Assembly: GCA_008125075.1 (NCBI GenBank)
Contig: VLTH01000003.1
Coordinates: 759,480 to 823,479 of the forward strand
DNA: 64,000 nucleotides
Direction of reading: 5' to 3'
From: Acetivibrio alkalicellulosi
GTDB taxonomy: Bacteria > Bacillota > Clostridia > Acetivibrionales > Acetivibrionaceae
The notes below the pieces were generated by a model that searched no databases, was not told the DNA's origin, and saw only the letters and a list, made by a program, of their open reading frames with translations. The stretch's first letter is position 1. Every line of letters starts with the position of its first letter. Below, piece after piece: positions 8,760-40,056 of the stretch. The translations under genes and the position numbers were made by a program.

Positions 8760-9518
8760 ATGATAAATATATTGCTTAGTGGTTGTAATGGCAAGATGGG
8801 TCAGGTAATTACAAGACTTGCATCACAAAAAAATGACTTGAAAATTGTTGCAGGCTATGATGCTTATACTTCAATTGAAAATACATATCCTGTATTTAAA
8901 GATTTAAATAAGTGTGATGTAAAAATTGATGTAATTATTGATTTTTCTCATCCAGCAGCACTTGAGAATATTCTTGAGTTTGCTGTTAGTCATAAGATAC
9001 CGTCAGTTATTGCAACTACCGGGCTTAGCAGTACACAAGTTAAGTCACTAGAAGAGGCATCTAAGTATATACCAGTTTTCTTTTCTGCAAATATGTCCAT
9101 TGGTGTTAACTTATTGCTAAACCTAGTTAAAAAAGCATCAAAAGTACTACAGAAAGATTTCGACATAGAAATAGTAGAAAAGCATCATAATTTAAAAATT
9201 GATGCACCTAGTGGTACTGCATTAGCTATTGCAGATGCTGCCAATTCTGTTTTGGATGAACAGCATGAATACATTTTTGACAGGCATTCAAGAAGAAAAA
9301 AGAGGAATAAAAATGAAATAGGTATTCATGCAGTTAGAGGCGGAACAATTGTAGGGGATCATTCAGTTATTTTTGCTGGAAATGATGAAATAATAGAAAT
9401 TAATCATATTGCAATGTCCAAGGATATTTTTGCTGAAGGATCATTAAATGCATCAGTGTTTTTAAGTGGTAAAAGTCCAGGAATGTACAATATGGATAAT
9501 TTAATTCAAAGTAAGTAA
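8760..9518 (+). CDS. dapB: 4-hydroxy-tetrahydrodipicolinate reductase
   Basis: DapB reduces the DapA product with NAD(P)H to tetrahydrodipicolinate. The 252-residue protein has the N-terminal nucleotide-binding loop GCNGKMGQ (8-15) and the catalytic signature EKHHNLKIDAPSGTA with His142, His143 and Lys146. The ATG at 8760 is preferred over the in-frame ATG at 8736 because AGGAAG precedes it and the protein then begins directly with the Rossmann strand. It is the third gene of the lysine operon, 53 bases after dapA, and is followed by a long palindromic repeat. Confidence 0.96.
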   Translation: MINILLSGCNGKMGQVITRLASQKNDLKIVAGYDAYTSIENTYPVFKDLNKCDVKIDVIIDFSHPAALENILEFAVSHKIPSVIATTGLSSTQVKSLEEASKYIPVFFSANMSIGVNLLLNLVKKASKVLQKDFDIEIVEKHHNLKIDAPSGTALAIADAANSVLDEQHEYIFDRHSRRKKRNKNEIGIHAVRGGTIVGDHSVIFAGNDEIIEINHIAMSKDIFAEGSLNASVFLSGKSPGMYNMDNLIQSK

Positions 9519-9620
9519 TGGCTAAGAAATAACATCCAATTCTCATCGTCCAAAACCCGTTAGAACATCGGGATTTTGTCCTTGAGAATATGAAGTTATT
9601 TCTAAGGCATTCCTAAGTAA
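9517..9620. repeat. Palindromic repeat, TTACTTAGGAAT family (long form), copy at dapB
   Basis: A 104-base element almost identical to 12524-12627. It folds into one long hairpin: AGAAATAAC pairs with GTTATTTCT, ATTCTCA with TGAGAAT, and CAAAACCCG with CGGGATTTTG. The right end ATTCCTAAGTAA is shared with the copy at 7659. It starts at the dapB stop codon. Confidence 0.85.
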
Positions 9621-12514: not shown

Positions 12515-12523
12515 TGTTTAAAT

Positions 12524-12627
12524 AATGGCTAAGAAATAACATCCAATTCTCATCGTCCAAAACCCGTAAAAACATCGGGATTTTGTACTTGAGAATATGA
12601 AGTTATTTCTAAGGCATTCCTAAATAA
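12524..12627. repeat. Palindromic repeat, TTACTTAGGAAT family (long form), copy after spoIID-like gene
   Basis: This 104-base element differs from 9517-9620 at only a handful of bases and has the same three-part hairpin. It begins 10 bases after the stop codon at 12514, so it probably also shapes the 3' end of that mRNA. Confidence 0.85.
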
Positions 12628-13094: not shown

Positions 13095-14906
13095 ATGCAA
13101 TTTGAGTTTTCTGATACTATTGCTGGTTATGTAAGGAGTTTTGATGAAAAAAATCGGATGTTTTTAATTGAAACTTCTGATGGTAAAGAGTATTCGGCAA
13201 AATTAACCGACACTACATATGCACGCATGACTAGAAATCTTGATGAACCATATTATGATTGCACAGGACACATTAATGAGCTAATTGTGCCAGGACAGTA
13301 TTTGTTTGCCTATGGAGTTTTTTATCCACAGGGTGGAGGACATTTTTTTGAGGCTAAAGTGATTGACTTCCCAGGAAGAGGAATTGATAAGTATCGATTT
13401 GAAGAACCCGATTGGTGGGTTAATCAGGCAAAGAGCATAGCCAGCTTTTTCATTAATGCTCAATTTGGAGATGGAAATGAAATAGACTACAAAAATTATC
13501 GCACAACATTAGAACTAAGTGGTATGAAAAAGGGAGACTTCCGTCAGGAAACAGACACAATATCACGTCTTGTATATGGATTTGCGTCAACTTTTATGCT
13601 TACAGGAGAAGATATTTTTTTAGAAGCTGCAGAAAAAGGGACAGCTTATTTAAGAGATCATATGAAATTTTATGATACAGATGAAAATATTGTCTATTGG
13701 TATCATGGTATTGATGTTAAAGGTGAAAAAGAGCATAAGGTATTTGCATCAGAATTTGGAGATGACTATGAAGCTATTCCTATGTATGAGCAGATATATG
13801 CTTTGGCAGGACCTACACAGACATACAGGATAAATGGAGATCCTGCAATTATGAAGGATATTAAAATGACAATTGATTTATTTGATAAATTTTTTATTGA
13901 CAGAGAGAGAGAAGGTTACTTTTCACACATTGACCCTATTTCACTTGATCCAAGAAGTGAAAGCCTTGGAAGAAACAGAGCCAGAAAGAACTGGAATTCT
14001 GTTGGCGATCATGCTCCAGCATATCTTATCAATCTTTGGCTTGCTACAGAAGATCCTAAATATAAAGACTTTTTAGAATATACTGCTGATTGTATCGAAA
14101 AATATTTTCCGGACTATGATAACAGCCCCTTTGTTCAGGAAAGATTTCATGAAGATTGGAGCCACGATAAAACATGGGGATGGCAGCAAGATAATGCAGT
14201 TGTAGGTCATAACCTTAAGATTGCATGGAATCTTATGAGGATAAATAGTATTGTTCCTAAAGAAAAGTATGTAAACTTTGCTAAAAAGATTGCCGATATT
14301 ATGCCTAAGGCTGGAATGGATGCTCAAAGAGGAGGATGGTATGATGTAATGTCAAGGACTCTTGGGCAGGGGGAAGAATTTTACAGGTTTACATGGCATG
14401 ATCGTAAGGCTTGGTGGCAGCAAGAACAGGGGATTTTAGCATATCAAATACTATATGGAATACTCAAAAGCCCTGAATATATGAAGTATGCCAGAGAATC
14501 AGCAGCTTTTTATAATGCATTCTTTTTAGATCATGACGATGGAGCAATATACTTTAATGTATTAAACAATGGATTACCATATCTTTTAGGAACAGAGCGT
14601 TTAAAGGGAAGTCATTCAATGAGTGGATACCATTCAATTGAACTTGCATATTTATCTCAAGTGTACACAAATCTATTAAATACAAAAAAACCTTTAGATT
14701 TATATTTTAAACCACTAGAAACAAATTTTCCTGATGGTGTTTTGCGAGTTCAGCCGGATATTTTACCAAAAGGTTCTTGTTATATATCAGATGTATGGAT
14801 TGATGACAAGCCTTGGAACAACTTTGATGCCCAAAAGTTTACTGTTCAGCTTCCACATCTTAATTACAGACCTAAAATAAAGGTTAGAATAGTTCCAAAC
14901 ATATAA
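13095..14906 (+). CDS. AGE-family (N-acylglucosamine 2-epimerase-like) (alpha/alpha)6-barrel protein
   Basis: The 603-residue protein has an N-terminal beta-rich region (about 1-100, OB-like) followed by an (alpha/alpha)6-barrel resembling the AGE superfamily of sugar 2-epimerases and isomerases. Family-like features are the aromatic and histidine-rich stretches DRREGYFSH-like (DREREGYFSHIDP), NSVGDHAPAYLINLW, WGWQQDNAVVGHNLKIAWNL, GGWYDVMSR, AWWQQEQGILAYQIL and GSHSMSGYHSIELAYL. These line the active site in cellobiose 2-epimerase and relatives. There is no signal peptide, so it acts in the cytoplasm. The gene is followed closely by a STAS regulator and a glycogen debranching enzyme, suggesting a role in glucan or oligosaccharide metabolism. 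The exact substrate cannot be read from the sequence. Confidence 0.75.
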   Translation: MQFEFSDTIAGYVRSFDEKNRMFLIETSDGKEYSAKLTDTTYARMTRNLDEPYYDCTGHINELIVPGQYLFAYGVFYPQGGGHFFEAKVIDFPGRGIDKYRFEEPDWWVNQAKSIASFFINAQFGDGNEIDYKNYRTTLELSGMKKGDFRQETDTISRLVYGFASTFMLTGEDIFLEAAEKGTAYLRDHMKFYDTDENIVYWYHGIDVKGEKEHKVFASEFGDDYEAIPMYEQIYALAGPTQTYRINGDPAIMKDIKMTIDLFDKFFIDREREGYFSHIDPISLDPRSESLGRNRARKNWNSVGDHAPAYLINLWLATEDPKYKDFLEYTADCIEKYFPDYDNSPFVQERFHEDWSHDKTWGWQQDNAVVGHNLKIAWNLMRINSIVPKEKYVNFAKKIADIMPKAGMDAQRGGWYDVMSRTLGQGEEFYRFTWHDRKAWWQQEQGILAYQILYGILKSPEYMKYARESAAFYNAFFLDHDDGAIYFNVLNNGLPYLLGTERLKGSHSMSGYHSIELAYLSQVYTNLLNTKKPLDLYFKPLETNFPDGVLRVQPDILPKGSCYISDVWIDDKPWNNFDAQKFTVQLPHLNYRPKIKVRIVPNI

Positions 14907-14928
14907 AAGAATAAGGATGTGCATATTT

Positions 14929-15276
14929 ATGGATATAAAAAAGTACTTAAAAGATAATGTTATGGTATTTGAGCTTAGTGGAAAACTTGATGTAAACACA
15001 TCTCCTGCCGTTCAAGATGAAATTATGGTACAAATTGAGCCTGATTGCAGAATAATAATTGATATGGAAAAATGCGATTATGTCTCAAGTGCAGGTTTAA
15101 GAGTTTTAATGATAATTGCAAAGCAGATGGCAAAAGTAGGAGGTTTTGGTGCATTAGTAGGGCTCCAGGAGGAAATAAAAGATGTTATGGAAATGACTGG
15201 CTTTGATAACTTGTTTATTATCCATGAAAATATAGAACAGGCATTAGTTTCGGTTCACAAGGAGGAAGCAATATGA
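14929..15276 (+). CDS. STAS-domain anti-sigma factor antagonist
   Basis: This 115-residue SpoIIAA/RsbV-like protein is a single STAS domain. The conserved SSAGLRVL holds the serine that is phosphorylated by a partner anti-sigma kinase and dephosphorylated by a PP2C phosphatase. GKLDVNTSPAVQDEI forms the usual first strands. I chose the ATG at 14929, since the in-frame ATG at 14917 overlaps the AAGGA ribosome binding site. It sits between the AGE-like gene and glgX and overlaps glgX by four bases (ATGA), which implies coupled translation. Candidate partners are the kinase at 17828 and the phosphatase at 18569. Confidence 0.93.
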   Translation: MDIKKYLKDNVMVFELSGKLDVNTSPAVQDEIMVQIEPDCRIIIDMEKCDYVSSAGLRVLMIIAKQMAKVGGFGALVGLQEEIKDVMEMTGFDNLFIIHENIEQALVSVHKEEAI

Positions 15277-17378
15277 TACGTGTTGACACCTATCCAACTC
15301 ATAAATATAAGGAGTTTAATTTAAGATCAGGAAAACCTGTACCTTTTGGTGCTACTATTGTTCCTGGTGGAATTAATTTTTCTGTATTTTCTCGTCATGC
15401 TAAAAGCTGTGAACTTGTTTTGTTTAAAAAGTATGAGAAGGAGCCATATGCCAGCATACCTTTTCCAGACGAATTCCGTATTGGGAATGTGTTTACAATG
15501 ATTGTTTTTGATCTTGATTATGAAAACATTGAATATGGCTTTAAAATGGATGGTCCTTTTAATTTCAATGAAGGTCATTGGTTTAACAAGGAGAAAATTT
15601 TACTTGACCCCTATGCTAAAGCAATAGGAGGAAGAGACGAATGGGGAAAAGAGCCTGATTGGAACAATTGTTTTCAATACAGAAGCCGTATTGCATTTGA
15701 TGATTTTGATTGGGAAGATGACAGACCTTTAGAAATTCCTATGAGAGACTTAATTATTTATGAAATGCATGTAAGAGGATTTACAAGGCATTCTTCTTCA
15801 GGTGTTAAGTATCCAGGTACATTTGCTGCAATACGAGAAAAAATACCATATCTAAAAGAGTTAGGTGTAAACTGTGTTGAACTTTTACCCATTTATGAGT
15901 TTGATGAGTTTGAAAACTCCAGGATATCTCCGGTAACAAATGAACGTCTATATAATTATTGGGGTTATAGTACAGTTGGTTTTTTTGCTCCTAAGGCGTC
16001 ATATGCGGCTACAGGCAAATATGGCATGCAAGTTGATGAATTTAAAGCAGTGGTTAAAGATTTTCACAAAAATGGTATAGAAGTTATTTTGGACGTGGTT
16101 TTCAATCATACTGCCGAAGGGAATGAAAATGGTCCCTATATATCATTTAGAGGTATAGATAATAAGACATATTATATGCTTACACCAGAAGGGTATTATT
16201 ACAACTTTAGTGGATGTGGAAACACTCTTAACTGTAATAATCCTGTTGTACGAAATATGATACTTGATTGCCTCAGGTGCTGGGCGGCTGAATATCATAT
16301 AGATGGTTTCAGGTTTGACCTAGCAGCTATTTTAGGACGTAATCAAGATGGCTCTCCTATGCATAATCCTCCTCTCTTAGAAACCCTTGCATTTGACCCT
16401 GTACTTGGTAAATGTAAACTGATAGCGGAGGCATGGGATGCAGGTGGACTTTATCAGGTAGGGGCATTTCCTTCGTGGGGTAGATGGGCTGAGTGGAATG
16501 GCAAGTACAGAGATGATATAAGAAAATTCTTAAAAGGTGATGAGGGATTTAGTGGAGCTGCTGCACAGAGACTTCATGGGTCACCTGATTTGTACAATCG
16601 CCATTACAGAGGCACCTGTGCATCTATAAATTTCATCACATGCCACGATGGTTTTACTTTAAAAGATCTTGTTTCTTATAACTATAAACACAATGAAGCA
16701 AATGATGAAAACAATAATGATGGAAGTAATGACAACTATAGTTGGAACTGTGGTGTTGAAGGAGAAACGGATGATGATGGCATTAATTTTTTAAGAAGAA
16801 AGCAGATAAAAAATGCTATAAGTATTCTTATGTTAAGTCAGGGAGTTCCTATGATGCTTTCGGGAGATGAATTTGGCAATACCCAAAATGGAAATAACAA
16901 TGCCTATTGTCAGGACAATGAAATCTCATGGCTTAATTGGAACCTTTTAAACAAAAACTATGAACTATTCAATTATTTTAAGAAGATAATAGTATTTCGT
17001 AAAAATCATCCTTCAATAAAAAGCAGTGAAGAAGAAGACTATTCAACTCATTTAGATAATGGTTATCCTAAAATATCCTGGCATGGAATAAAAGCCTGGG
17101 AAGCTGATTTTTCTGGAACCAGTCGTCTGTTAGGGATGCTTTGCTGTGGTAAAGGTGAAAATGGTTATGATTTTATCTATACTGCTATGAATATGCATTG
17201 GGAAATGCATGGTTTTGAGCTTCCAAATCTACCAGAAGGATACAAATGGCATGTGTTTGCAAATACAGATGCTAAAGCTCCAAATGATATATGGGAAGCT
17301 GGAAAAGAAGTAATTCTTGAAAATCAAAATCAATTTTTAGTTGGGCCAAGATCGGTAGTAATACTTGTAGGTAAATAA
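15273..17378 (+). CDS. glgX: Glycogen debranching enzyme, GlgX/isoamylase type (GH13)
   Basis: The 701-residue enzyme hydrolyses alpha-1,6 branches in glycogen or limit dextrin in the cytoplasm. It has an N-terminal CBM48-type domain (about 15-130, PFGATIVPGGINFSVFS) and a GH13 barrel. Catalytic residues are visible: the nucleophile Asp349 in DGFRFDLAA, the acid/base Glu386 in LIAEAWD, and the transition-state Asp459 in TCHDGFTLKDLVSYN. DVVFNHTAEG is the second conserved GH13 region. The start overlaps the stop of the STAS gene, and AGGAGG precedes the ATG. Its presence in one unit with a STAS regulator suggests that glycogen breakdown and partner switching are linked here; this is inference. 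Confidence 0.93.
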   Translation: MIRVDTYPTHKYKEFNLRSGKPVPFGATIVPGGINFSVFSRHAKSCELVLFKKYEKEPYASIPFPDEFRIGNVFTMIVFDLDYENIEYGFKMDGPFNFNEGHWFNKEKILLDPYAKAIGGRDEWGKEPDWNNCFQYRSRIAFDDFDWEDDRPLEIPMRDLIIYEMHVRGFTRHSSSGVKYPGTFAAIREKIPYLKELGVNCVELLPIYEFDEFENSRISPVTNERLYNYWGYSTVGFFAPKASYAATGKYGMQVDEFKAVVKDFHKNGIEVILDVVFNHTAEGNENGPYISFRGIDNKTYYMLTPEGYYYNFSGCGNTLNCNNPVVRNMILDCLRCWAAEYHIDGFRFDLAAILGRNQDGSPMHNPPLLETLAFDPVLGKCKLIAEAWDAGGLYQVGAFPSWGRWAEWNGKYRDDIRKFLKGDEGFSGAAAQRLHGSPDLYNRHYRGTCASINFITCHDGFTLKDLVSYNYKHNEANDENNNDGSNDNYSWNCGVEGETDDDGINFLRRKQIKNAISILMLSQGVPMMLSGDEFGNTQNGNNNAYCQDNEISWLNWNLLNKNYELFNYFKKIIVFRKNHPSIKSSEEEDYSTHLDNGYPKISWHGIKAWEADFSGTSRLLGMLCCGKGENGYDFIYTAMNMHWEMHGFELPNLPEGYKWHVFANTDAKAPNDIWEAGKEVILENQNQFLVGPRSVVILVGK

Positions 17379-17421
17379 TACTGTAATGCAAACCGCAAAT
17401 TAAAAGTACTTTCACGGTACA

Positions 17422-17444
17422 TGTAACAAATGTTAAGAATAATA
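17422..17444 (+). repeat. Short TGTAACAAA-type motif
   Basis: TGTAACAAATGTTAAGAATA matches the consensus TGTAACAAAWGTGAAGAAWA also found at 26351 (minus strand), 30872, 32731 and 57408. Here it lies between glgX and the second STAS gene. Function is unknown. Confidence 0.45.
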
Positions 17445-17494
17445 TTAACCTAATAATCAGTTTATAATAAAACAATTATTAAAGGAGAATTTTT

Positions 17495-17812
17495 ATGAGT
17501 GAGAAATTTATCTTTCAAACAGGAAAAATATCAAAAATTAATCTTTCTGGTAAACTTGATGCGGTTAATGCACCTTTATTAATGGAAGAATTAAAAAGTC
17601 TTATTGGACAAGATGTAGACAAAATAGTATTTTACGCAAAAGACTTAGAATACATTTCAAGTGCAGGACTTAGAACTATTATTTTTGCAAAACAAAAGAT
17701 TGGAACAGAAACTTCAATTTACTTTATAGAAGCTCAAGAATCGGTAACTGATGTTATTACAATGAGTGGACTTGACAATTTTCTATATATTCAAGATTCT
17801 TTCGATGAATGA
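17495..17812 (+). CDS. STAS-domain anti-sigma factor antagonist (second copy)
   Basis: A 105-residue SpoIIAA/RsbV-like protein. The phosphoacceptor region SSAGLRTI is intact, and NLSGKLDAVNAPLLMEEL is the typical N-terminal half. AAAGGAG lies before the ATG. The next gene, an anti-sigma kinase, follows after 15 bases, so the two form the usual antagonist-kinase pair. The paralogue at 14929 may compete for the same kinase. Confidence 0.93.
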   Translation: MSEKFIFQTGKISKINLSGKLDAVNAPLLMEELKSLIGQDVDKIVFYAKDLEYISSAGLRTIIFAKQKIGTETSIYFIEAQESVTDVITMSGLDNFLYIQDSFDE

Positions 17813-17827
17813 TTCGGAGGCCTTAAC

Positions 17828-18232
17828 ATGGACAAAATTACAATTCAAGCAGTACTTGAAAACCTTGATGATATGATGGAGTTTTTATTGAATGATTTAA
17901 GCAAAATAATTTCAAATAAAAGCTTAATAAATCAAATTAGGTTATCTTGCGAAGAGGTTCTTGTAAATGTAATAAGTTATGCCTATCTAGAAGAAAAAGG
18001 AAATGTTGAAATAATTCGTGATTTATCTGAGGAAGGAATGTTATTTTATCAATTTATTGATGAAGGAGTTCCTTACAACCCACTTTTAAATACTGATCCT
18101 GATATTAATGCACCTATTGAAGACCGTGGTATTGGAGGTCTTGGTGTATATCTTTACAAATCCATAATGGATGAAGTCAAATATGAAAGAAAAGACAATA
18201 AAAACATACTAACATTTATAAAAAAAATCTAA
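17828..18232 (+). CDS. RsbW-like anti-sigma regulatory factor (serine kinase)
   Basis: The 134-residue protein is a GHKL-type ATPase domain of the RsbW/SpoIIAB kind. The N-box EEVLVNVISYAY, the G1 box DEGVPYNPL and the G2 region RGIGGLGVYL are present. Such proteins bind either a sigma factor or a STAS antagonist and phosphorylate the latter. No sigma factor gene lies nearby, so the controlled target is unknown; it could be an enzyme or a distant sigma factor. It pairs with the STAS gene 15 bases upstream. A nested pair of inverted repeats follows. Confidence 0.92.
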   Translation: MDKITIQAVLENLDDMMEFLLNDLSKIISNKSLINQIRLSCEEVLVNVISYAYLEEKGNVEIIRDLSEEGMLFYQFIDEGVPYNPLLNTDPDINAPIEDRGIGGLGVYLYKSIMDEVKYERKDNKNILTFIKKI

Positions 18233-18233
18233 G

Positions 18234-18436
18234 TGTGAAATAGGTTGCTTTAATAAACTTTTAGAATAAAACCTCCTTATACTATTCTTCTCAAAAAGTT
18301 TGTTTTTTTAGCAAACTTTTTAGAAGATATAGTTCCTCTGTTTATCGCAGCGGAACTTATCTACCATGATTGCAGCTTCCGCTGCGATATGGTTTAATTT
18401 GCATAATTTTTTTATTAAAGCAACCCTATTTTCACA
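18234..18436. repeat. Outer inverted repeat enclosing a 113-bp element
   Basis: TGTGAAATAGGTTGCTTTAA (from 18234) is inverted in TTTATTAAAGCAACCCTATTTTCACA (18411-18436) with one extra base. The arms flank a family D element. The outer repeat may have been the terminator hairpin of the anti-sigma gene before the insertion. Confidence 0.7.
18278..18390. repeat. 113-bp double-hairpin repeat (family D), copy 1
   Basis: This element is nearly identical to 27204-27316 and, inverted, to 39834-39946 and 39944-40056. It forms two hairpins: AAAAAGTTTG with CAAACTTTTT, and ATCGCAGCGGAA with TTCCGCTGCGAT. It codes for nothing and looks like a miniature mobile element or REP-type repeat. Confidence 0.9.
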
Positions 18437-18568
18437 TTTAAGAGCTTTGGATTAAAGTCCTTTTGTTTATGAAATTTTGGTCATATAAACCGAAAGTGAA
18501 GAAAAATATGCAATCTGACATTTTTAAATATTCTATTAAAGCTATTTCAAATATTGGAGTTGATAAAC

Positions 18569-20686
18569 TTGACATTTTATCTAGGAATCAAATGGAAAAT
18601 TCTTATGCTGGTTCTGGGCATATCTCTAGTGGCACTTTCCCTTTCCTTTTATATATCATATAATGGTATGGAAAAACTTGGGAATTATGCTTTAGATTCT
18701 AGTGACCAGCTTGGAAAAAGTGCAGCTAATGATAGTCAAATTGCTTTAGAAAAGCAGACGGGTGAATATCTTTTAAAGGTTGCTATAGATCAGGCTGATA
18801 TAAGCGATAAGATTTTGTCATCAGTTAAAGACAAGGTAGAAATAATGGCAAAATATAGTGAGTTTTTATGGGACAATCCTCAAGGGTTTAATGCTAGTCA
18901 TCCATTATCACCAGAAGAAGCTGTAAATATGACAAGGGTTCCAGTATTTGAATTGGTGGATAGTATTGATAGGGAAGATTTAAAAGAAGAGCTTGATCTT
19001 TTGGGAAATATGAAGTATGTGTTTGAACCTATATTATCTGGTGATTCAAATATTTCTTCAATATTTCTTGGCACACAATCAGGTATTACAATTATGTTTT
19101 CAAATTTTCCACCAGTAAAAAACCCAGGATATGATCCAAGAGTTAGACCATGGTATATTGAGGCGTCTTCTAATAAAGAAGTAATATGGACAGAGACATA
19201 TCAGGATGCTTTTGGAAAAGGATATATGGTGACCTGCGCTAAAGCCTGTTTTGACAAGGATGGTAATTTAAAAGGAGTATTAGGAGCTGATGTTACCTTA
19301 AAGGCATTAAATGATCAAATTATAAGTACTCAAATAGGGGATTTAGGATATGCAGTATTAATTGATGAAATGGGAAAAGTCATTTCTCAGCCAGAGGGTA
19401 ATTTTTTTGATGATATCTTTAATGAAGAAAATATTACTATGACAGCTAATGAAGAGTTTAACAAAATTGTAGACAAAATGATATCTAAAGAAACGGGAGT
19501 CAAAAAGATTTCTATAAATAATGAAGAAAAATATATAGCTTATGCACCTGTAAAGTCAACAAATTGGAGTCTTGCTGTGGTTATGCCCCATGATGAAGTT
19601 GTAAAACCCATAGTAGAGACTAAAGAAAAAATAGAAAGGATTACTTTAGAGACAGAAAACTACATCCGGACTTTCATAGCAAATGTTTTAAAAAGGTTTG
19701 TTATAATATTTGTTATTTTATTTATACTTGTAATTATAATTAGTATAAGTCTTTCTAATAAATTGACAAAACCAATAATTGCATTAAATGAAGGAGTAAG
19801 TATTGTAGGAGAGGGAAATCTAGACTATAACTTTAGTGTAAATACTAGAGATGAAATTGAAGATCTGGCAAATGCATTCAATAAAATGACTTCTGATCTT
19901 AAAACATATATTAATAACTTAAAAGAGACCACAGCTCAAAAAGAAAGAATAGAAAGTGAGCTCAAAATTGCCCATTCAATACAAAATAGCATGCTTCCAA
20001 GAATATTTCCACCATTTCCAGAAAGAAATGAAATTGATATATATGCAAGTATGGAACCTGCAAAGGAAGTAGGAGGAGACTTTTATGACTTCTTTTTCAT
20101 AGATGAAAAAAGACTTTGCTTTATAATGGCTGATGTATCTGGAAAAGGGGTTCCGGCTGCTCTATTTATGGTCATATCAAAGACACTTCTCAAAAATCAA
20201 GCACTTTTGGGATTGCCTCCTGAAGAAATCTTGACTACTGTAAATAACATGTTATGTGAAGATAATGATGAATGTATGTTTGTAACTGCATTTTTAGCAG
20301 TACTTGAAGTAGATACAGGAAAAATGACATATTCAAATGCAGGTCACAATCCACCTCTTTTATATAAAGAAGATGGAGGATTTGATTGGGTAAAAAGCAA
20401 GAAGGGGTTTGTTCTTGCAGGTATGGAAAATATGAAATTTCAAGGTAGCGAAATTACCTTAAATAAAGGTGACAAAGTATTTCTCTATACTGATGGTGTT
20501 ACTGAAGCAATGAATGGGGAAGGAAAACTCTTTTCTGACGAAAGGCTTAAAACCACTCTAAATAAGCTAAAAAATCTTGAAGGAAAAGACATTATTATAG
20601 GGGTAAGAGATGACATTAGAGAGCATGTGAAAGAGGCAGAACAGTCTGATGATATTACAATGATGAGTATTAAGTTTAATGGCTAA
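18569..20686 (+). CDS. Sensor PP2C serine phosphatase (dCache-HAMP-SpoIIE type)
   Basis: The approximately 705-residue membrane protein has a helix near residues 10-32, an extracellular Cache-type sensor (about 35-355, with GYDPRVRPWYIEA and GVLGADVTLKAL), a second helix (about 370-395), a HAMP linker (LTKPIIALNEG to DEIEDLANAFNKM) and a C-terminal PP2C/SpoIIE phosphatase. The catalytic metal-binding pattern is clear: EVGGDFYDFF, ADVSGKGVPAALFM, NAGHNPPLL, YTDGVTEA and QSDDITMM. It should dephosphorylate the STAS proteins encoded upstream in response to an external ligand. The start is unsure: TTG at 18569 follows GGAG, TTG at 18554 is also in frame, and an overlapping frame from 18463 hints at an N-terminal frameshift. 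Confidence 0.92.
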   Translation: MTFYLGIKWKILMLVLGISLVALSLSFYISYNGMEKLGNYALDSSDQLGKSAANDSQIALEKQTGEYLLKVAIDQADISDKILSSVKDKVEIMAKYSEFLWDNPQGFNASHPLSPEEAVNMTRVPVFELVDSIDREDLKEELDLLGNMKYVFEPILSGDSNISSIFLGTQSGITIMFSNFPPVKNPGYDPRVRPWYIEASSNKEVIWTETYQDAFGKGYMVTCAKACFDKDGNLKGVLGADVTLKALNDQIISTQIGDLGYAVLIDEMGKVISQPEGNFFDDIFNEENITMTANEEFNKIVDKMISKETGVKKISINNEEKYIAYAPVKSTNWSLAVVMPHDEVVKPIVETKEKIERITLETENYIRTFIANVLKRFVIIFVILFILVIIISISLSNKLTKPIIALNEGVSIVGEGNLDYNFSVNTRDEIEDLANAFNKMTSDLKTYINNLKETTAQKERIESELKIAHSIQNSMLPRIFPPFPERNEIDIYASMEPAKEVGGDFYDFFFIDEKRLCFIMADVSGKGVPAALFMVISKTLLKNQALLGLPPEEILTTVNNMLCEDNDECMFVTAFLAVLEVDTGKMTYSNAGHNPPLLYKEDGGFDWVKSKKGFVLAGMENMKFQGSEITLNKGDKVFLYTDGVTEAMNGEGKLFSDERLKTTLNKLKNLEGKDIIIGVRDDIREHVKEAEQSDDITMMSIKFNG

Positions 20687-20721: not shown

Positions 20722-21291
20722 ATGAGTGAAAAAAAAATATGTATATTAATTGAAAACCGATTTATTGATCATGAAATAATCTATTATTCCAATCGTTTTG
20801 CTGAAGAAGGGATTAATGTGGATTTTATGACTAGACTATGGGGACAGCCAAAGCTTACTTTTAAAGGTTTAGAACTTGGTATGGAATTATCAGTAGATAA
20901 GAGCTTTGAAGATATGGATGATGAGACTTTAGAATCATATTCTGCAATAATTATGCCAGCAGGTTATGTGGCCGACATGCTAAGATACTCACAAAAACCA
21001 GGAGAGCTGTCTCCATGTGTTGAGTTTATGAAAAGGGCTATGGAAAAGAAGCATATTATTAAAGGCGCAATATGTCATTCTTTGTGGATATTTGACCATA
21101 TTCCTGAGGTGATAAGAGGAAGAAAAGTAACCTGCCACAATAATGTAATAGGAAGTGTTAGAAATACTGGTGCCATATACGTTGATCAGGATATTGTAAT
21201 AGATAGAGATTTTATTACAGCAAGAACAGGTGGAATGTTTGCACCATTTGCACGAACAATTATTAATGAAATTACAAATAATAAATCTTGA
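20722..21291 (+). CDS. DJ-1/PfpI family protein (first of two)
   Basis: The 189-residue protein has the flavodoxin-like DJ-1/PfpI fold. The nucleophile-elbow cysteine lies in KGAICHSLWIF. Family members include glyoxalase III-like deglycases, isocyanide hydratases and chaperones, so the activity is not determined by fold alone. It begins 35 bases after the PP2C phosphatase with GGGGTG before the ATG and is probably in the same transcript. A second, longer DJ-1 homologue follows 31 bases later. Confidence 0.85.
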   Translation: MSEKKICILIENRFIDHEIIYYSNRFAEEGINVDFMTRLWGQPKLTFKGLELGMELSVDKSFEDMDDETLESYSAIIMPAGYVADMLRYSQKPGELSPCVEFMKRAMEKKHIIKGAICHSLWIFDHIPEVIRGRKVTCHNNVIGSVRNTGAIYVDQDIVIDRDFITARTGGMFAPFARTIINEITNNKS

Positions 21292-21322
21292 AGTAAAAAT
21301 AAAAAAATAGGAGGACTAGGAA

Positions 21323-22147
21323 ATGAAGAAAAAAATTCTATTTGTACTATCTGAGTATGGTTATTGGGGTGAAGAGTTGGTTGGCCCATTAGAAACTGTT
21401 GAAAAGGCAGGATATGAGGCTGTATTTGCTACGCCAACAGGTAAAAGAGCAAGGGCACTTCCTCCAAGCATGGATGACACATTTATTGATCCACCATTGG
21501 GAAAAACTGTTGTGTCAAAAGAAATGGCTAAACAGGTTAAGGCAATTGAGGATTCTAGTAAACTGGATAATCCAGTTAACCTTTCTGCGTTGCTGCCTGA
21601 AAGACCCTATATGAGTAGTAATACATACCTAAGAGACTTTGAAGAGTACAATGAGGGTGTTGAGAGGGCTGAAGAGGAAATAAAAGGATATGAGGCATTG
21701 GTATTAGTTGGTGGTAGTGGGCCTCTTGTTGATATGGTTAATAATCAAAGGGTTCATGACCTAATACTTTCATTTTATAAGTTGAATAAACCTATTGCAG
21801 CAGAATGTTATGGAGTTGCATGTCTTGCATTTGCAAGAGAATATTGGATAAGAAAGAGTATTATATGGGGCAAACATGTTACAGGTCATCCTCTAGAGTA
21901 TGACTATAAAGATGGAACAGGATTTTTGGGAGTAGACTTTAATATGGGGCCTCCACCATACCCACTTGAGTTTATCTTAAGAGATGCTGTAGGACCAGAA
22001 GGACAGTTTATCGGCAATGTGGGAAGAACAATATCTGCAATTGTTGATTATCCTTTCATTACAGGTAGGTCTACTGCAGATTCTTACAAAACAGGAGAGC
22101 TACTTATAGAAGTATTGGAAAAGGGATTGAAAAGGTACGGATGGTAA
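21323..22147 (+). CDS. DJ-1/PfpI family protein (second, longer)
   Basis: The 274-residue protein resembles the longer Hsp31-like branch of the DJ-1/PfpI superfamily. It starts with ILFVLSEYGYWGEELVGPLE, has the VLVGGSGPLVDM turn, and an elbow cysteine in AAECYGVACLAF. Inserted segments (about residues 60-115) set it apart from the short homologue upstream. AGGAGG precedes the ATG. It lies in a tight series with the ThDP enzyme, 22-25 bases downstream. Possible roles are aldehyde or glyoxal handling; the substrate is unknown. Confidence 0.82.
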   Translation: MKKKILFVLSEYGYWGEELVGPLETVEKAGYEAVFATPTGKRARALPPSMDDTFIDPPLGKTVVSKEMAKQVKAIEDSSKLDNPVNLSALLPERPYMSSNTYLRDFEEYNEGVERAEEEIKGYEALVLVGGSGPLVDMVNNQRVHDLILSFYKLNKPIAAECYGVACLAFAREYWIRKSIIWGKHVTGHPLEYDYKDGTGFLGVDFNMGPPPYPLEFILRDAVGPEGQFIGNVGRTISAIVDYPFITGRSTADSYKTGELLIEVLEKGLKRYGW

Positions 22148-22172
22148 AATCAATTGAACCTGGAGGGAAATG

Positions 22173-23879
22173 ATGAGTATAAAAACAGGAAAACAAGCTA
22201 TAATTGAACAGTTTCTTGCTGATGGAATTACAAAAATGTTTGGTAATCCGGGTACAGTAGAGCAAGGGTTTCTGGATGCATTAGAAGAATACAAAGACTT
22301 TGAGTATATACTGACCCTCCAGGAATCTATTGCTGTTGCAATTGCAGATGGATACGCCAGAAAAACAAAGAAACCATCAGTAGTGCAGCTTCACTCAGGT
22401 GTTGGCCTGGGAAATGGAATTGGCATGATGTATCAGGCAAAAAGAGGACATGCCCCTTTGGTAGTTATTGCAGGTGAAGCCGGTATTAAGTATGATGCTA
22501 TGGATGCCCAGATGGCTGCAGATCTTGTGGAAATGGCAAAACCAGTAACAAAATGGGCTGCAAGAGTTGTTGATTCTGCATCTCTTCTAAGAGTTATTAA
22601 AAGAGCAATAAAAATTGCTGCCACACCTCCAATGGGTCCGGTATTTGTATCCTTGCCAATGGATATTTTAGATGAACCAATTGAAGAAGATATTGTACCT
22701 ACTTCCTTTTTGAATACAAGGGTTTGCCCTGATGATGCAGATTTAATTAAAGCTGCACAGATTTTAGCTAATGCAAAAAGACCATTGATAATAATGGGTG
22801 ACGGTATAGCTTTCTCAAAAGGGCAAGAAGAGTTGGCAAAAGTTGCAGAATTAATTGGTGCAGAAGTCTGGGGAGCCAACTCATCTGAGGTAAATATTAG
22901 TGCCTCACATCCTTTATTTAAAGGACTTTTAGGGCATATGTTCGGAGAGGTGTCACAAGCAGCTGTTAAAAATGCAGATGTTGTTTTAGTAAGTGGCACA
23001 TACCTTTTTCCTGAAGTATTTCCTTTATTAGAGGGTGTATTTTCAAAGGATGCAAAGCTCATTCACATTGAACTTGATTCATATGAAATTGCAAAGAATT
23101 TTCCTGTAGAGATTGGAATGGTTAGTGATCCTAAGGTGACTCTTTCAAAACTTTCAGATATCTTAATGGAAACTATGACGCAAGAGCAAAAGTATAGAGC
23201 AACTTTAAATATTAAAAGGATAACTGGAGAAAAAGAGGAAAGCATGTATGAGGCAAGAAAAAAAGACTTGGCATATATGGATAATGTACCTATATATCCA
23301 GCAAGATTCATGGAGGAGCTTTCAAAGCAGCTTCCTCCTGATGCTATCATATTTGATGAGGCATTGACATGCTCTCCTGAGCTTAACAGGTATATACCAG
23401 CAGATATTCCAGGTAACTTTTTTCAAACAAGAGGAGGTTCATTAGGGGTTGGTATACCTGGAGCTTTAGGTATAAAACTGGCTGATGAAAGTAAAACAGT
23501 GATAGCTTTTACTGGTGATGGTGGAAGTATGTATACAATACAGGCACTTTGGACAGCTGCCCATCATAACATAGATGCAAAATTTGTTATCTGCAATAAT
23601 AAAAGCTATAGGCTTCTAATGTTAAATATTCAGCAATACTGGAAGGAAAGAGACATACCTTTTCATGAATATCCAAAACCTTTTAAGTTAAATGAGCCTT
23701 TGATAAACTTTAGTGAAATGGCCCAAGCTATGGGCGTTCCTGCCATAAAAGTTGAAAGGCCGGAAGATATAGCAAAATCTATTGAAAAAATGCTAAATAC
23801 AAAAGGTCCATTTCTTATAGATCTCATATTGGAAAATAATCCTACAGAGCAAAAAAGCACTTGTAAGTGTGGTCAATAA
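22173..23879 (+). CDS. Thiamine-diphosphate-dependent enzyme (acetolactate synthase / benzoylformate decarboxylase-like)
   Basis: The 568-residue protein has the three-domain layout of the POX/ALS family: pyrimidine-binding N domain (1-170, with the catalytic Glu51 in LTLQESIAVAIADGYAR), a central domain (190-330) and a PP-binding C domain. The metal-diphosphate motif is TGDGGSMYTIQALWTAAHHN to CNNKSYR. Enzymes of this family decarboxylate or carboligate 2-oxo acids. I cannot place it in acetolactate synthase with confidence because no regulatory subunit or ilv gene is near; the surroundings suggest a special catabolic role. GGAGGG favours the ATG at 22173 over the adjacent ATG at 22170. The C terminus has a CKCG pair. 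Confidence 0.88.
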   Translation: MSIKTGKQAIIEQFLADGITKMFGNPGTVEQGFLDALEEYKDFEYILTLQESIAVAIADGYARKTKKPSVVQLHSGVGLGNGIGMMYQAKRGHAPLVVIAGEAGIKYDAMDAQMAADLVEMAKPVTKWAARVVDSASLLRVIKRAIKIAATPPMGPVFVSLPMDILDEPIEEDIVPTSFLNTRVCPDDADLIKAAQILANAKRPLIIMGDGIAFSKGQEELAKVAELIGAEVWGANSSEVNISASHPLFKGLLGHMFGEVSQAAVKNADVVLVSGTYLFPEVFPLLEGVFSKDAKLIHIELDSYEIAKNFPVEIGMVSDPKVTLSKLSDILMETMTQEQKYRATLNIKRITGEKEESMYEARKKDLAYMDNVPIYPARFMEELSKQLPPDAIIFDEALTCSPELNRYIPADIPGNFFQTRGGSLGVGIPGALGIKLADESKTVIAFTGDGGSMYTIQALWTAAHHNIDAKFVICNNKSYRLLMLNIQQYWKERDIPFHEYPKPFKLNEPLINFSEMAQAMGVPAIKVERPEDIAKSIEKMLNTKGPFLIDLILENNPTEQKSTCKCGQ

Positions 23880-23900
23880 TCATTTTAGGAGGTTTATATT

Positions 23901-24338
23901 ATGCTTACACAGTTAACACAACTTGAAGTAAACGAGTTGGTTTTTAAATGGTATAAAAAACTGGATATTCATGCTAATGTAGAAGAGTTATTGCCTATGG
24001 TAATCTCAGAAGGTTTAGAAATGAGGTTTCCTGAAGCTACATTAACAAGCATCGAAGAATTTAAAAATTGGTATGATGTTGTAATAAACAAATTTTTTGA
24101 CGAAATACACACCCTTAGCATGGTTAATATTGAAATTGATGAAGACCAGGCTAAAGTTAAAGTTATAGTTAACTGGCAGGCAAAGGTCTGGAATCCACCT
24201 GATGCAAAGAGTAAGTGGCTTGGATTTGATGCTTATCAGACATGGATAGTAAAAAGAGATCCAATTTCAAAAAAAGCAGTTATTGCTACATATATTGTAG
24301 ATGAATTAGATCCTATGGAGGGATCGGCGCAACTTTGA
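23901..24338 (+). CDS. SnoaL/NTF2-like protein (first)
   Basis: The 145-residue protein appears to have the cone-shaped SnoaL/NTF2-like fold. The N-terminal helices run LEVNELVFKWYKKLDIHA, and the strands contain RFPEATLTSIEEFKNWYD and WQAKVWNPPDAKSKWLGF. The fold serves as a small hydrolase, isomerase or binding protein. AGGAGG lies before the ATG, and it is 21 bases after the ThDP enzyme. It is not close in sequence to the second SnoaL-like gene, so this is not a recent duplication. Confidence 0.65.
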   Translation: MLTQLTQLEVNELVFKWYKKLDIHANVEELLPMVISEGLEMRFPEATLTSIEEFKNWYDVVINKFFDEIHTLSMVNIEIDEDQAKVKVIVNWQAKVWNPPDAKSKWLGFDAYQTWIVKRDPISKKAVIATYIVDELDPMEGSAQL

Positions 24339-24361
24339 GTAATTAAAGGAGGAACAGATTA

Positions 24362-24754
24362 ATGAAAAATGTACCAGATACTAAGATGGGAAAAATGTAT
24401 AAAGAACATATTGAGTATATTATAAATAAAAACATTGAAGCATTATTGGATCAATACACTGACGATTGTTTACTTATAAGCAGTTTTATGAAAGAACCAG
24501 TTTATTATAAAGGAAAAGAACAATTAAGAGAGCATATGAATGGAATTCTTGGAATTGATGGTCTTGAAACAGAAGTTGTTTTCTGGGCAGAATCAGAAGA
24601 TCCTCAAACTCTTATGGTTACCGAGATAATAAAGATGAAGACAAAAGATGGAGAGGCAAATATGAGGTTTGCTGATAGTTGGGTGTTAAGAGATGGCAAA
24701 ATAGCAATTCATTTTGCAGGAATGGTTCAATACCCAGATGGAACACTGGCATAA
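24362..24754 (+). CDS. SnoaL/NTF2-like protein (second)
   Basis: The 130-residue product fits the SnoaL-like family better than its neighbour: YKEHIEYIINKNIEALLDQY is followed by YTDDCLLISSF, then GKEQLREHMNGILG and a final FADSWVLRDGKIAIHFAG. This is the usual pattern of a helical cap and a twisted sheet with the closing WxxRDGKI strand. AAAGGAGG precedes the ATG, 23 bases after the previous gene. Function in this operon is unknown. Confidence 0.75.
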   Translation: MKNVPDTKMGKMYKEHIEYIINKNIEALLDQYTDDCLLISSFMKEPVYYKGKEQLREHMNGILGIDGLETEVVFWAESEDPQTLMVTEIIKMKTKDGEANMRFADSWVLRDGKIAIHFAGMVQYPDGTLA

Positions 24755-24783
24755 AAATAAGAATTATAAGGAGTGAATTAATA

Positions 24784-25605
24784 ATGCACGCATGTGAAAA
24801 AAAAGTAATTAAGAAAGATGGAATAAGTATACACATATTTGTAAGCCCTATTGATGGAGAAATGGTAAATTCAATTATTGTAGAGTCTAAAAATAGCCTT
24901 GTTATAATTGACGTGCCCTTGTTAAGACCTTATTCTTTAGAATTTAGAAATTATGCAGAACAAATAGGAAAACCCATTGACAGAGTTATTGTAACTCATG
25001 CTCATCCAGACCATTGGGCAAGTCTTGAACATTACAAAGATATTCCCATATATTCTACATTAGAAACCAAGAAAGAAATTAAAGAACTAGGTGACTGGAT
25101 GTTAGGATACCATAGGCAGATTCATGGAAGTTTGATTTCAGATGAAAAGGTTGTTCCAGAACATATTATAGATGATGGAAGTTTTACTATTGACGGTGTT
25201 ACATATACTGCAATGAAAGTATTTGATACTGAGTATAAAAGCATGTTAGTGCTTGATATTCCAAAAATAAAAACTCTTATAGCACAGGACATGATATATA
25301 ACAAAGTGTATTTATTTCTTGGAGAAAAAACTTCATCGGGTGAATTGTGCTGTGATAACTGGATAAAAGAAATTGAAAAGTATAAACTAAATAATTATGA
25401 AACTATAATTCCAGGACATGGAGAACCAACTGATGCATCATTACTAGATGAAAACATTAAATATCTTAAAGCTGCAAAAGAAATAATCATATCTTCTAAA
25501 TCTGGAGAAGAATTTAAAACCAAAATAATGGAAGAATATCCTGAATATCGAGTTCCATTTTTGCTTGATATGACTGCATATCTTTTATATGAAGCCAATG
25601 GATAA
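24784..25605 (+). CDS. Metallo-beta-lactamase-fold hydrolase
   Basis: The 273-residue protein has the MBL fold. The metal-binding motif H-x-H-x-D-H is complete in THAHPDHW (His72, His74, Asp76, His77), and IIPGHGEPTD near residue 209 supplies a further ligand. It resembles glyoxalase II-like and SoxH-type thioester or ester hydrolases. The frame is open 35 codons upstream into the previous gene, but AAGGAG at about 24769-24775 selects the ATG at 24784. It is the sixth gene of the DJ-1/ThDP cluster, and no signal peptide is seen. Confidence 0.88.
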   Translation: MHACEKKVIKKDGISIHIFVSPIDGEMVNSIIVESKNSLVIIDVPLLRPYSLEFRNYAEQIGKPIDRVIVTHAHPDHWASLEHYKDIPIYSTLETKKEIKELGDWMLGYHRQIHGSLISDEKVVPEHIIDDGSFTIDGVTYTAMKVFDTEYKSMLVLDIPKIKTLIAQDMIYNKVYLFLGEKTSSGELCCDNWIKEIEKYKLNNYETIIPGHGEPTDASLLDENIKYLKAAKEIIISSKSGEEFKTKIMEEYPEYRVPFLLDMTAYLLYEANG

Positions 25606-25686
25606 TTAATTGTTTAATTCTAAATAAAAAAGGTCGAACAGTGGCAAAAGTTACTGGTTAATCATCATCACACAAGGAGTTTGATT

Positions 25687-26115
25687 ATGGAGGCATTAGC
25701 TGTTTCACATGTGGGAATATCATGTAGTGATCCTATTAATATTGAAAAATTTTATACAAAACACTTTGGATTTAAGCGCTCAAGAGTATATGCACCAGGG
25801 CCTGATCAAGTAGTCATGATAAAGGCGGGCAACACTTACTTAGAACTATTTAAATCTTCTGAAAAATCTCCAGTACCTCTTCCTAAAGGAGCTGGGCAAG
25901 ATTATCCTGGATGGAGACATATTTGTTTTTCTGTGGATAACCTTGATGAGTTTTTGAAAGGTATGGGAAGTGATGCTGTTATAACCCTTGGGCCTTTGGA
26001 TATGAGTGATTTTATTCTAGATATGAAGGTGTGTTGGATTTCTGATCCTGAGGGAAATATTATAGAGCTTAATCAAGGTTATGTAGATGAAGAAGATCCT
26101 CCACAATTAAAGTAG
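25687..26115 (+). CDS. VOC family (glyoxalase/dioxygenase-fold) protein
   Basis: The 142-residue protein is a vicinal-oxygen-chelate protein with two beta-alpha-beta-beta-beta modules. Motifs include VSHVGISCSDPINIEKFY, YLELFKSS, WRHICFSVDNLDEFL and a closing WISDPEGNIIELNQG. Metal ligands could be His8, Glu in YLELF, His in WRHIC and Glu in IIELN, which is the glyoxalase I-like set. AAGGAG places the start at ATG 25687 rather than TTG 25681. A gap of about 80 bases separates it from the MBL gene, so it is the last gene of the cluster or has its own promoter. Confidence 0.88.
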   Translation: MEALAVSHVGISCSDPINIEKFYTKHFGFKRSRVYAPGPDQVVMIKAGNTYLELFKSSEKSPVPLPKGAGQDYPGWRHICFSVDNLDEFLKGMGSDAVITLGPLDMSDFILDMKVCWISDPEGNIIELNQGYVDEEDPPQLK

Positions 26116-26184
26116 TGTATTTCATTTAAAGAGTATATTTTTACACATGGCAGCAGTAGTTAATAACCGCTGCCATAAATAGGG

Positions 26185-26380
26185 TCCATGTTATTTAAGT
26201 GAAGAAAAATATGTAAGAAACATTGTGAAGCAAGTATTAGAGCCTGTTATTGCGACGAGGAAAGGGAGAGCATTGTTTGAGCGCTAGCGAGTTTTGCAAA
26301 GGCCCCGAGGAGTATTTACAGGCTCTAGACTGCGTAACTTAAGTTTCTGGAATATTTTTCTTCACTTTTGTTACACACAC
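26185..26380. repeat. Large palindromic element with TGTAACAAA ends (family E)
   Basis: Outer arms around 26189-26222 and 26343-26376 are inverted (AAGTGAAGAAAAATAT against ATATTTTTCTTCACTT). Inner arms AGAGCCTGT (26239-26247) and ACAGGCTCT (26318-26326) are perfect. The centre has further pairings, such as GCGCTAGCG. One end recurs at 32729-32785. This fills the 341-base gap after the VOC gene; no gene is seen in it. Confidence 0.75.
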
Positions 26381-26456
26381 CCCCATAAATATAGTAAGGA
26401 TGTTTATTTGAGCAATTATAAAAAGAGACTAGAAACAATGATGTGAGGTTTAATAA

Positions 26457-27203: not shown

Positions 27204-27316
27204 TATACTATTCTTCTCAAAAAGTTTGTTTTTTTAACAAACTTTTTAGAAGATATAGTTCCTCTGTTTATCGCAGCGGAACTTAACTACTATGATTGCA
27301 GCTTCCGCTGCGATAT
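27204..27316. repeat. 113-bp double-hairpin repeat (family D), copy 2
   Basis: This is the same length and nearly the same sequence as 18278-18390, in the same orientation. It starts 9 bases after the stop at 27194. The remaining 27317-27597 contains no gene that I can see, only an AT-rich leader to the ABC operon. Confidence 0.9.
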
Positions 27317-27597
27317 GTAATTTTGAGTACAAGTATTTACAAGATTCTATCTTATTCTAAAAATCCTCATTATATAGGGTGGAGTTCACATATAAAATTC
27401 AGCTGGGAGTTGAGTCTAGGGTAATTTAATGGAGTGTACTGTATTTTTTTTTGTTCAAAAAGATATTACATTTGTCACATAAAATAATTACTCCTGTAAC
27501 TTCTATTTATCATTTTATCTTGTTAAAATTGATTTATAATATAAAAGTTTAATCTACAAAACATTATTACTATAGAATTTTAAATAGGAGGCAAAGC

Positions 27598-39786: not shown

Positions 39787-39833
39787 AAATTATAACACCT
39801 CTTACCTTTTAAAAATGCAAATATGATTATAGC

Positions 39834-39946
39834 ATATCGCAGCGGAAGCTGCAATCATAGTAGTTAAGTTCCGCTGCGATAAACAGAGGAACTATATCTT
39901 CTAAAAAGTTTGTTAAAAAAACAAACTTTTTGAGAAGAATAGTATA
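39834..39946. repeat. 113-bp double-hairpin repeat (family D), inverted copy 3
   Basis: The reverse complement is nearly identical to 18278-18390. It shares its last bases (ATA) with the next copy, so the two stand in tandem upstream of trmB. Confidence 0.9.
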
Positions 39947-40056
39947 TCGCAGCGGAAGCTGCAATCATGGTAGATAAGTTACGCTGCGATAAACAGAGGA
40001 ACTATATCTTCTAAAAAGTTTGCTAAAAAAACAAACTTTTTGAGAAGAATAGTATA
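39944..40056. repeat. 113-bp double-hairpin repeat (family D), inverted copy 4
   Basis: This is a second copy directly adjoining copy 3, with one stem mismatch (AGTTACGCTGCGAT in place of AGTTCCGCTGCGAT). A decayed third unit begins at 40054 (ATATCCTAGTTGAAGCTGCA) and fades out near 40100. Confidence 0.88.

Follow-up and report, generated by a model that had tools for sequence, protein, structure and literature searches.

Carbon and glucose metabolism in Synechocystis have been tied to the icfG operon since the 1990s. This operon couples the metabolism of carbon and glycogen to the partner switching of sigma factors. Its products include an N-acetylglucosamine 2-epimerase (Slr1855), two antagonists (Slr1856 and Slr1859), GlgX (Slr1857), the IcfG phosphatase (Slr1860) and a kinase and anti-SigC factor (Slr1861), and an icfG mutant does not grow under low carbon with glucose (PMC12329169, PMC8670252). 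Butanol induces slr1854, a gene with a general stress protein annotation (PMC3726282). Here, a related unit is described from Acetivibrio alkalicellulosi, in a stretch of 64,000 nucleotides (contig VLTH01000003.1, positions 759,480 to 823,479) referred to below as the window. In this unit, icfG-type genes are followed by seven genes for two DJ-1 superfamily proteins (DJ-1 and ThiJ), a thiamine diphosphate (ThDP)-dependent enzyme, two SnoaL-like proteins (SnoaA and SnoaB), a metallo-beta-lactamase-fold (MBL) hydrolase and a VOC-fold protein. To our knowledge, descriptions of signal-controlled glycogen-breakdown operons of the icfG type have so far been confined to cyanobacteria. No account was found of the role of the AGE epimerase and DJ-1 proteins of the icfG operon. 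No published description of an icfG-type operon combined with a ThiJ-ThDP cassette was found in open-access text, and an earlier note on this DNA, which knew of no described pathway with the folds of the seven genes, agrees with the open-access literature in this respect. We put the probability at about 0.5 that a single unit of 13 genes, gated by carbon status or stress and with the seven genes as its distal part, encodes a dedicated sugar-to-carbonyl pathway and not general glyoxalases.

The seven genes lie on the + strand with intergenic gaps of 31, 22, 21, 23, 29 and 81 bp, and a purine-rich ribosome-binding site (RBS) precedes each ATG. All seven folds score at or above the Pfam cut-off, so that the open reading frames (ORFs) and Pfam matches bear out the seven co-directional genes, and the folds assigned to them, in the earlier note. 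Two starts in the ORF list were corrected, that of the VOC gene to ATG 25687 and that of the MBL gene to ATG 24784, which has an RBS (a TTG alternative at 24679 would overlap the preceding gene). The first gene (DJ-1) begins 35 bp past the stop codon of a dCache-HAMP-SpoIIE phosphatase (PP2C) gene, the last of an upstream part on the same strand (window 13095-20686) that starts ~7.6 kb before the seven genes (Table 1). The earlier boundaries thus contained the seven genes but were too narrow, as the conserved unit begins at 13095 and not at 20722; the AGE epimerase, two STAS proteins, GlgX, RsbW and PP2C had not been recognized as parts of one unit, and the strongest metabolic clue, glycogen, was therefore overlooked. 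The link that had been suggested with the Cache-PP2C partner-switching genes is real and is conserved across loci.

On a single strand, the upstream part has the order AGE-STAS-GlgX-STAS and then RsbW and PP2C, which places it among icfG-type operons. It shares with the icfG operon of Synechocystis sp. PCC 6803 (slr1852-slr1862) the AGE protein (slr1855), the first STAS protein (slr1856), GlgX (slr1857), the second STAS protein (slr1859), the PP2C phosphatase IcfG (slr1860) and the RsbW-like kinase/anti-SigC factor (slr1861); a DJ-1/PfpI gene also belongs to such operons. In contrast to Synechocystis, the window comes from a dockerin-bearing firmicute, RsbW lies ahead of PP2C, the phosphatase carries a dCache sensor, the DJ-1 protein is of a different subtype and a ThiJ-ThDP-SnoaL-MBL-VOC cassette is added. 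Cyanobacteria that lack the ThDP gene (loci L104-L112) have a stand-alone operon, DJ1-AGE-STAS-GlgX-STAS with RsbW and PP2C. The SSAG motif is present in both STAS proteins (residue 57 in the first and residue 55 in the second), the N-box, DEGxP and GIGGLG motifs are retained in the RsbW-like kinase, and the PP2C metal (Asp) motifs are intact. From these motifs, the kinase is predicted to phosphorylate the STAS proteins and PP2C to reverse this, with the dCache-PP2C protein as a possible sensor. The window AGE and GlgX proteins are 63-72% identical to their cyanobacterial counterparts, whereas the STAS, RsbW and PP2C proteins are only ~24-46% identical. Conservation of the enzymes and divergence of the switch would be expected if each host is served by its own sigma factor. 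A link to the arsI/prsI regulators of Streptomyces could not be established from the papers found.

Table 1. Genes of the proposed unit, in window positions
Product	Position	Strand	Evidence
AGE-family sugar 2-epimerase/isomerase-like protein, 603 aa	13095-14906	+	AlphaFold2 model and Foldseek
STAS anti-sigma-factor antagonist 1 (Slr1856-like position)	14917-15276	+	Pfam STAS 76 bits; TIGR00377 85.6 bits, above cut-off
GlgX glycogen debranching enzyme	15273-17378	+	TIGR02100 701.6 bits, above cut-off of 640.9
STAS anti-sigma-factor antagonist 2 (Slr1859-like position)	17495-17812	+	TIGR00377 63.5 bits, above cut-off
RsbW/SpoIIAB-like anti-sigma kinase (HATPase_c_2)	17828-18232	+	Pfam 71 bits
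dCache-HAMP-SpoIIE PP2C phosphatase (IcfG-like position)	18554-20686	+	SpoIIE 173 bits, dCache_1 96, HAMP 38.5
DJ-1/PfpI, cassette subtype	20722-21291	+	Pfam DJ-1_PfpI 81 bits
ThiJ-like (PF17124) DJ-1 superfamily protein	21323-22147	+	Pfam ThiJ_like 64 bits
ThDP-dependent lyase/carboligase, benzoylformate decarboxylase-like	22170-23879	+	Pfam TPP_N/M/C 95/93/110 bits
SnoaL/NTF2-like protein A (SnoaA)	23901-24338	+	SnoaL_4 24.5 bits, cut-off 24
SnoaL/NTF2-like protein B (SnoaB)	24362-24754	+	SnoaL_2 34 bits
MBL-fold hydrolase	24784-25605	+	Lactamase_B 48 bits
VOC-fold protein	25687-26115	+	Pfam Glyoxalase 37 bits

An alignment scan of ~85,000 genomes with the ThDP enzyme gave 327 confirmed relatives. 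The best 80 of these 327 loci were used and fall in Cyanobacteriota, Chloroflexota, Actinomycetota, Deinococcota, Planctomycetota, Myxococcota, Thermodesulfobacteriota, Acidobacteriota, Pseudomonadota and Bacillota; a locus on a Runella plasmid adds Bacteroidota. Neighbours were scored at 91 ThDP loci with iterated hidden Markov models on stop-to-stop ORFs, and four frequent apparent neighbour families (f9, f20, f21 and f36) were discarded, as they consisted of antisense ORFs from genomes of high GC content. A ThiJ-like DJ-1 protein accompanied the ThDP relative in 87 of the 91 loci. Where at least 8 kb was available on both sides (52 loci), ThiJ was found in 49, DJ-1 in 36, SnoaA in 32, AGE in 29, VOC and GMC oxidoreductase in 26 each, SnoaB in 20 and GlgX in 19. 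Where the flank lacks AGE, the gene usually lies elsewhere in the genome: it was present in 19 of 20 ThDP genomes of mixed phyla, most of them picked for its absence from the flank. Runella rosea carries in a row glycogen synthase, ThiJ, ThDP, GMC, a SnoaL array, DJ-1, VOC, AGE, STAS, GlgX, STAS and an RsbW-like gene, and Streptomyces NBC_01766 has ThiJ, ThDP, DJ-1, AGE, STAS, GlgX, STAS, an anti-sigma factor and a SpoIIE phosphatase. Other loci bring further glycogen or alpha-glucan genes (maltokinase, amylase/GlgE-type, MalQ, glycogen synthase). In six loci (L007, L011, L038, L040, L046 and L052), paired genes resembling Nif11-domain leader peptides adjoin EthD, and often GMC, within the cassette; no enzyme that modifies ribosomally synthesized peptides was present among the annotated neighbours of these genes.

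Presence and absence across whole genomes gave the same picture. Among 148 Cyanobacteriales genomes, the ThDP gene was found in 17 and ThiJ in the identical 17 (Fisher p 1.2e-22), and AGE was present in 16 of these 17 against 22 of the 131 others (p 3e-10), p-values that assume independent genomes, which these are not. Of 148 Streptomycetales genomes, 17 had AGE, and these were precisely the genomes with a ThDP orthologue of full score, the two genes mostly lying 0.6-18 kb apart; two weaker ThDP matches were without AGE. The recurrence is far beyond chance, and the genes do travel together, a point that the earlier note had proposed to check in other genomes. A set that recurs in about ten phyla probably does one specific job. 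It is quite improbable that the locus is instead a stress island with no shared pathway, in which independent stress genes useful under the same sigma factor have gathered beside a partner-switching operon. Variable gene order, optional members and the LtrA and aquaporin neighbours at some loci are as such an island would have them, but the joint presence of ThiJ and ThDP in nearly all scored loci, with identical presence/absence sets in two phyla, is far tighter than co-regulation alone would give.

The ThDP enzyme was compared with curated families. Its best NCBIfam model is benzoylformate decarboxylase (BFD; NF005485), at 328.9 bits against a cut-off of 493, and it reaches the threshold of none of the curated ThDP families listed. 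Acetolactate synthase, the assignment that would have counted against the proposal in the earlier note, can be set aside: TIGR00118 gave 267 against 538, and all listed acetolactate synthase models were below cut-off. In the ThDP tree, paralogues from the same genome, used as outgroup, are set apart from the ThDP clade by a very long branch. On this basis the protein is classed as a BFD-like enzyme in a clade of its own. BFD (MdlC; PDB 1bfd, 6a50) is also the best PDB match. The active-site residues of Pseudomonas putida BFD are Ser26, Glu47, His70 and His281. Glu47 and His70 correspond to Glu52 and His75 of the window enzyme, and Ser26 is replaced by Thr29 in the alignment. FGNPGT, Glu52, His75 and GDG...NN (GDGG...NN in the window) are invariant across orthologues. 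Where P. putida BFD has His281, the window enzyme reads PEVF, an invariant stretch with no equivalent of this residue (6a50 itself also lacks it), and no mandelate-pathway genes lie near its gene.

Orthologues of the ThDP enzyme were not found in 58 genomes of the window's order or in other members of its class among 391 genomes, and no other carrier of AGE was found among 245 genomes of the class. The lack of another ThDP or AGE carrier in these samples makes acquisition by horizontal transfer likely. The ThDP tree agrees with this: Chloroflexota and Deinococcota are each divided by well-supported branches, and the window sequence pairs with a single metagenome-assembled genome of Bacillota. 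ThDP homologues of 50-65% identity also lie among related genes on plasmids of Nostoc, Deinococcus, Streptomyces, Runella and Gemmobacter.

The remaining cassette proteins bear on whether the seven genes serve general carbonyl defence. The window DJ-1 keeps Cys118-His119 and Glu18 in an alignment of cassette DJ-1 proteins, to which it is mostly 48-55% identical, compared with 32-33% to the DJ-1 proteins of ThDP-less icfG-type operons. ThiJ is 57-77% identical across phyla, keeps Cys162 and Glu18, has Tyr163 beside the Cys where many DJ-1 proteins carry His, and is predicted to be an obligate partner of the ThDP enzyme. Both proteins share the fold and the nucleophilic Cys with partner Glu of the Hsp31/HchA and YhbO/PfpI branches of the DJ-1 superfamily, yet both lie far under the curated cut-offs for glyoxalase III and the deglycase PfpI (DJ-1, TIGR01383 32.5 against 131; ThiJ, HchA model NF003168 20.2 against 365). 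The VOC protein has the His/Glu/His/Glu metal-binding pattern, with scores of 17.6 against 120 for glyoxalase I (TIGR00068) and 36.5 against 115 for methylmalonyl-CoA epimerase (TIGR03081). The MBL protein carries HAHPDH, and no hydroxyacylglutathione hydrolase (glyoxalase II) model was among its 17 NCBIfam matches, the best being TIGR04558 (85 against 300). MBL is an optional cassette member, with an orthologue in L053 (45% identity) and a weaker match in L006 (24%). The labels glyoxalase I-, II- and III-like in the earlier note are consequently not supported, none of these four proteins reaching a curated glyoxalase cut-off.

A defence against carbonyl stress would have DJ-1, ThiJ, VOC and MBL deal, by detoxification or repair, with the methylglyoxal-type 2-oxo aldehydes and glycation that increase as stressed cells mobilize glycogen, and the ThDP enzyme would remove the resulting 2-oxo acid or aldehyde. 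The conserved Cys, His and Glu of DJ-1/PfpI and the full metal site of the VOC protein suit this explanation, as do the butanol induction of slr1854, with its general stress annotation, and partner switching, which is typical of stress regulons. We nevertheless consider it rather unlikely: besides the glyoxalase scores, detoxification has no need of AGE and GlgX, nor of a GMC oxidase, EthD or as many as nine arrayed SnoaL paralogues, and ThiJ and ThDP are inseparable, unlike generic detoxification genes. The loci carry variable tailoring genes (GMC, EthD, SDR, AKR and SnoaL arrays), which favour a dedicated pathway over generic detoxification.

SnoaA has a conserved FFDExH, and its AlphaFold2 model (pLDDT 96.9) has an NTF2-like fold that Foldseek matched to NTF2-like dehydratases/isomerases. 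The top match was 2rgq, a Nostoc punctiforme protein of unknown function, followed by putative dehydratases; as these matches are only broadly NTF2-like, no function is assigned. The structural-genomics entry 2rgq (Npun_R3134) may itself derive from such a cluster. Of all the products, SnoaB is conserved best, with 77-78% identity to its Desulfuromonadaceae and Runella counterparts, and a sequence search of the PDB gave no match for it. In L035, L069, L084 and L095, four to nine SnoaL-type paralogues are arrayed beside the ThDP gene, a lineage-specific expansion.

The same variable genes could belong to a specialized-metabolite cluster, in which the cassette makes an exported acyloin- or sugar-derived product (a signal, pigment or antimicrobial) and the glycogen genes act as no more than its source of carbon. 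We regard this as unlikely. Lineage-specific GMC, EthD, SDR, AKR, alpha/beta hydrolase and SnoaL-array genes, the Nif11/NHLP leader peptides at some cyanobacterial loci, the plasmid location and the ability of BFD-like ThDP enzymes to make acyloins are all compatible with it, but there is no conserved carrier-protein, nonribosomal peptide synthetase/polyketide synthase or dedicated exporter gene, and a typical natural-product cluster would not be tied so constantly, from phylum to phylum, to AGE, GlgX and partner switching.

The AGE protein has an N-terminal beta domain, an (alpha/alpha)6 barrel and a C-terminal beta part. It has no Pfam match and is 59-66% identical to most orthologues of other phyla. 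The best Foldseek matches of its AlphaFold2 model (pLDDT 89.8) were glucose 2-epimerase 8h1l (E 1e-19) and cellobiose 2-epimerase 3wkf (TMt 0.83). The barrel of the model and the invariant His306, His372 and His513, which align with the three catalytic histidines of these enzymes, place it in the AGE superfamily. It differs from 8h1k-n and 3wkf in its extra N-terminal beta domain and in sharing only 13-20% identity with them, and the Glu of their GHxxE motif is absent: the window protein reads GHNLK, and Lys375 is invariant in 21 orthologues.

The best reading of these data is that a horizontally spread cassette, controlled by partner switching, converts a sugar derived from glycogen to a 2-oxo compound or by way of one. 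Gene content, order, co-inheritance and intact motifs are observed, and substrate and product are proposed from them. In such a scheme the dCache domain would sense an extracellular small molecule and set the activity of PP2C, which would dephosphorylate a STAS antagonist; the antagonist would then capture the RsbW kinase and free a sigma factor. GlgX would debranch glycogen to linear maltodextrin, and the AGE-type enzyme would act on the reducing sugar, or on an acid derived from it, as an epimerase or isomerase. SnoaL and VOC proteins, with a GMC flavin oxidase in many other hosts, might dehydrate, isomerize or oxidize the sugar to a 2-oxo compound, which the ThDP enzyme would cleave or ligate through an enamine (acyl-anion) intermediate. 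The ThiJ and DJ-1 proteins would work with the ThDP enzyme, their cysteine handling a reactive aldehyde or hemithioacetal.

Several points weigh against this scheme. The SnoaL, VOC, DJ-1 and MBL folds are versatile and carry little chemical information, and MBL, GMC, VOC and one SnoaL protein are not universal. Lys375 of AGE replaces the Glu after the catalytic His of the solved enzymes, so that its activity may differ. Finally, promoters could lie at two of the boundaries, in the 321 bp ahead of PP2C and the 81 bp ahead of VOC, and the single transcript is predicted. Scans for promoters and terminators were no better than those of shuffled sequence, and operon boundaries are therefore not claimed from them; an Rfam search of window 10-31 kb found no RNA.

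Repeats lie around the unit. A dispersed ~115-bp repeat (window 18278-18391, 27204-27317 and 39829-40048) has one copy within the 321-bp RsbW-PP2C gap, where it may separate or regulate the switch genes. A MITE-like element of ~200 bp with 40-nt inverted ends (26180-26385) lies immediately 3' of the VOC gene and has ~40 copies in the host genome, mostly of 81-93% identity. A 109-bp pair of 95% identity occupies 9512-9620 and 12519-12627, the second copy lying 5' of AGE, close to where the unit begins. By eye, dockerin-like calcium-binding repeats were seen in a large leucine-rich-repeat protein and another protein (52120-54033, - strand; 2998-4527, + strand), which suggests a cellulosome-type host.

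In summary, the regulatory and glycogen half of this unit was already known from icfG; its fusion with a ThiJ-ThDP cassette and the spread of the combination over about ten phyla were not found described in open-access text, and a new pathway possibly lies within it. More tentatively, the ThiJ-ThDP-DJ-1-SnoaL-VOC cassette may encode a hitherto undescribed bacterial pathway, in which sugar from glycogen is converted to a carbonyl product made by the ThDP enzyme; it would move between phyla with its own carbon-sensing partner-switching operon, and icfG operons would be its regulatory and glycogen core. The data suggest horizontal movement, often on plasmids, of a glycogen operon that brings its own sigma-factor switch. 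With an icfG-type operon in a clostridial-type genome, and ThDP and ThiJ co-inherited almost without exception, the role of the AGE and DJ-1 proteins becomes a testable problem of enzymology.

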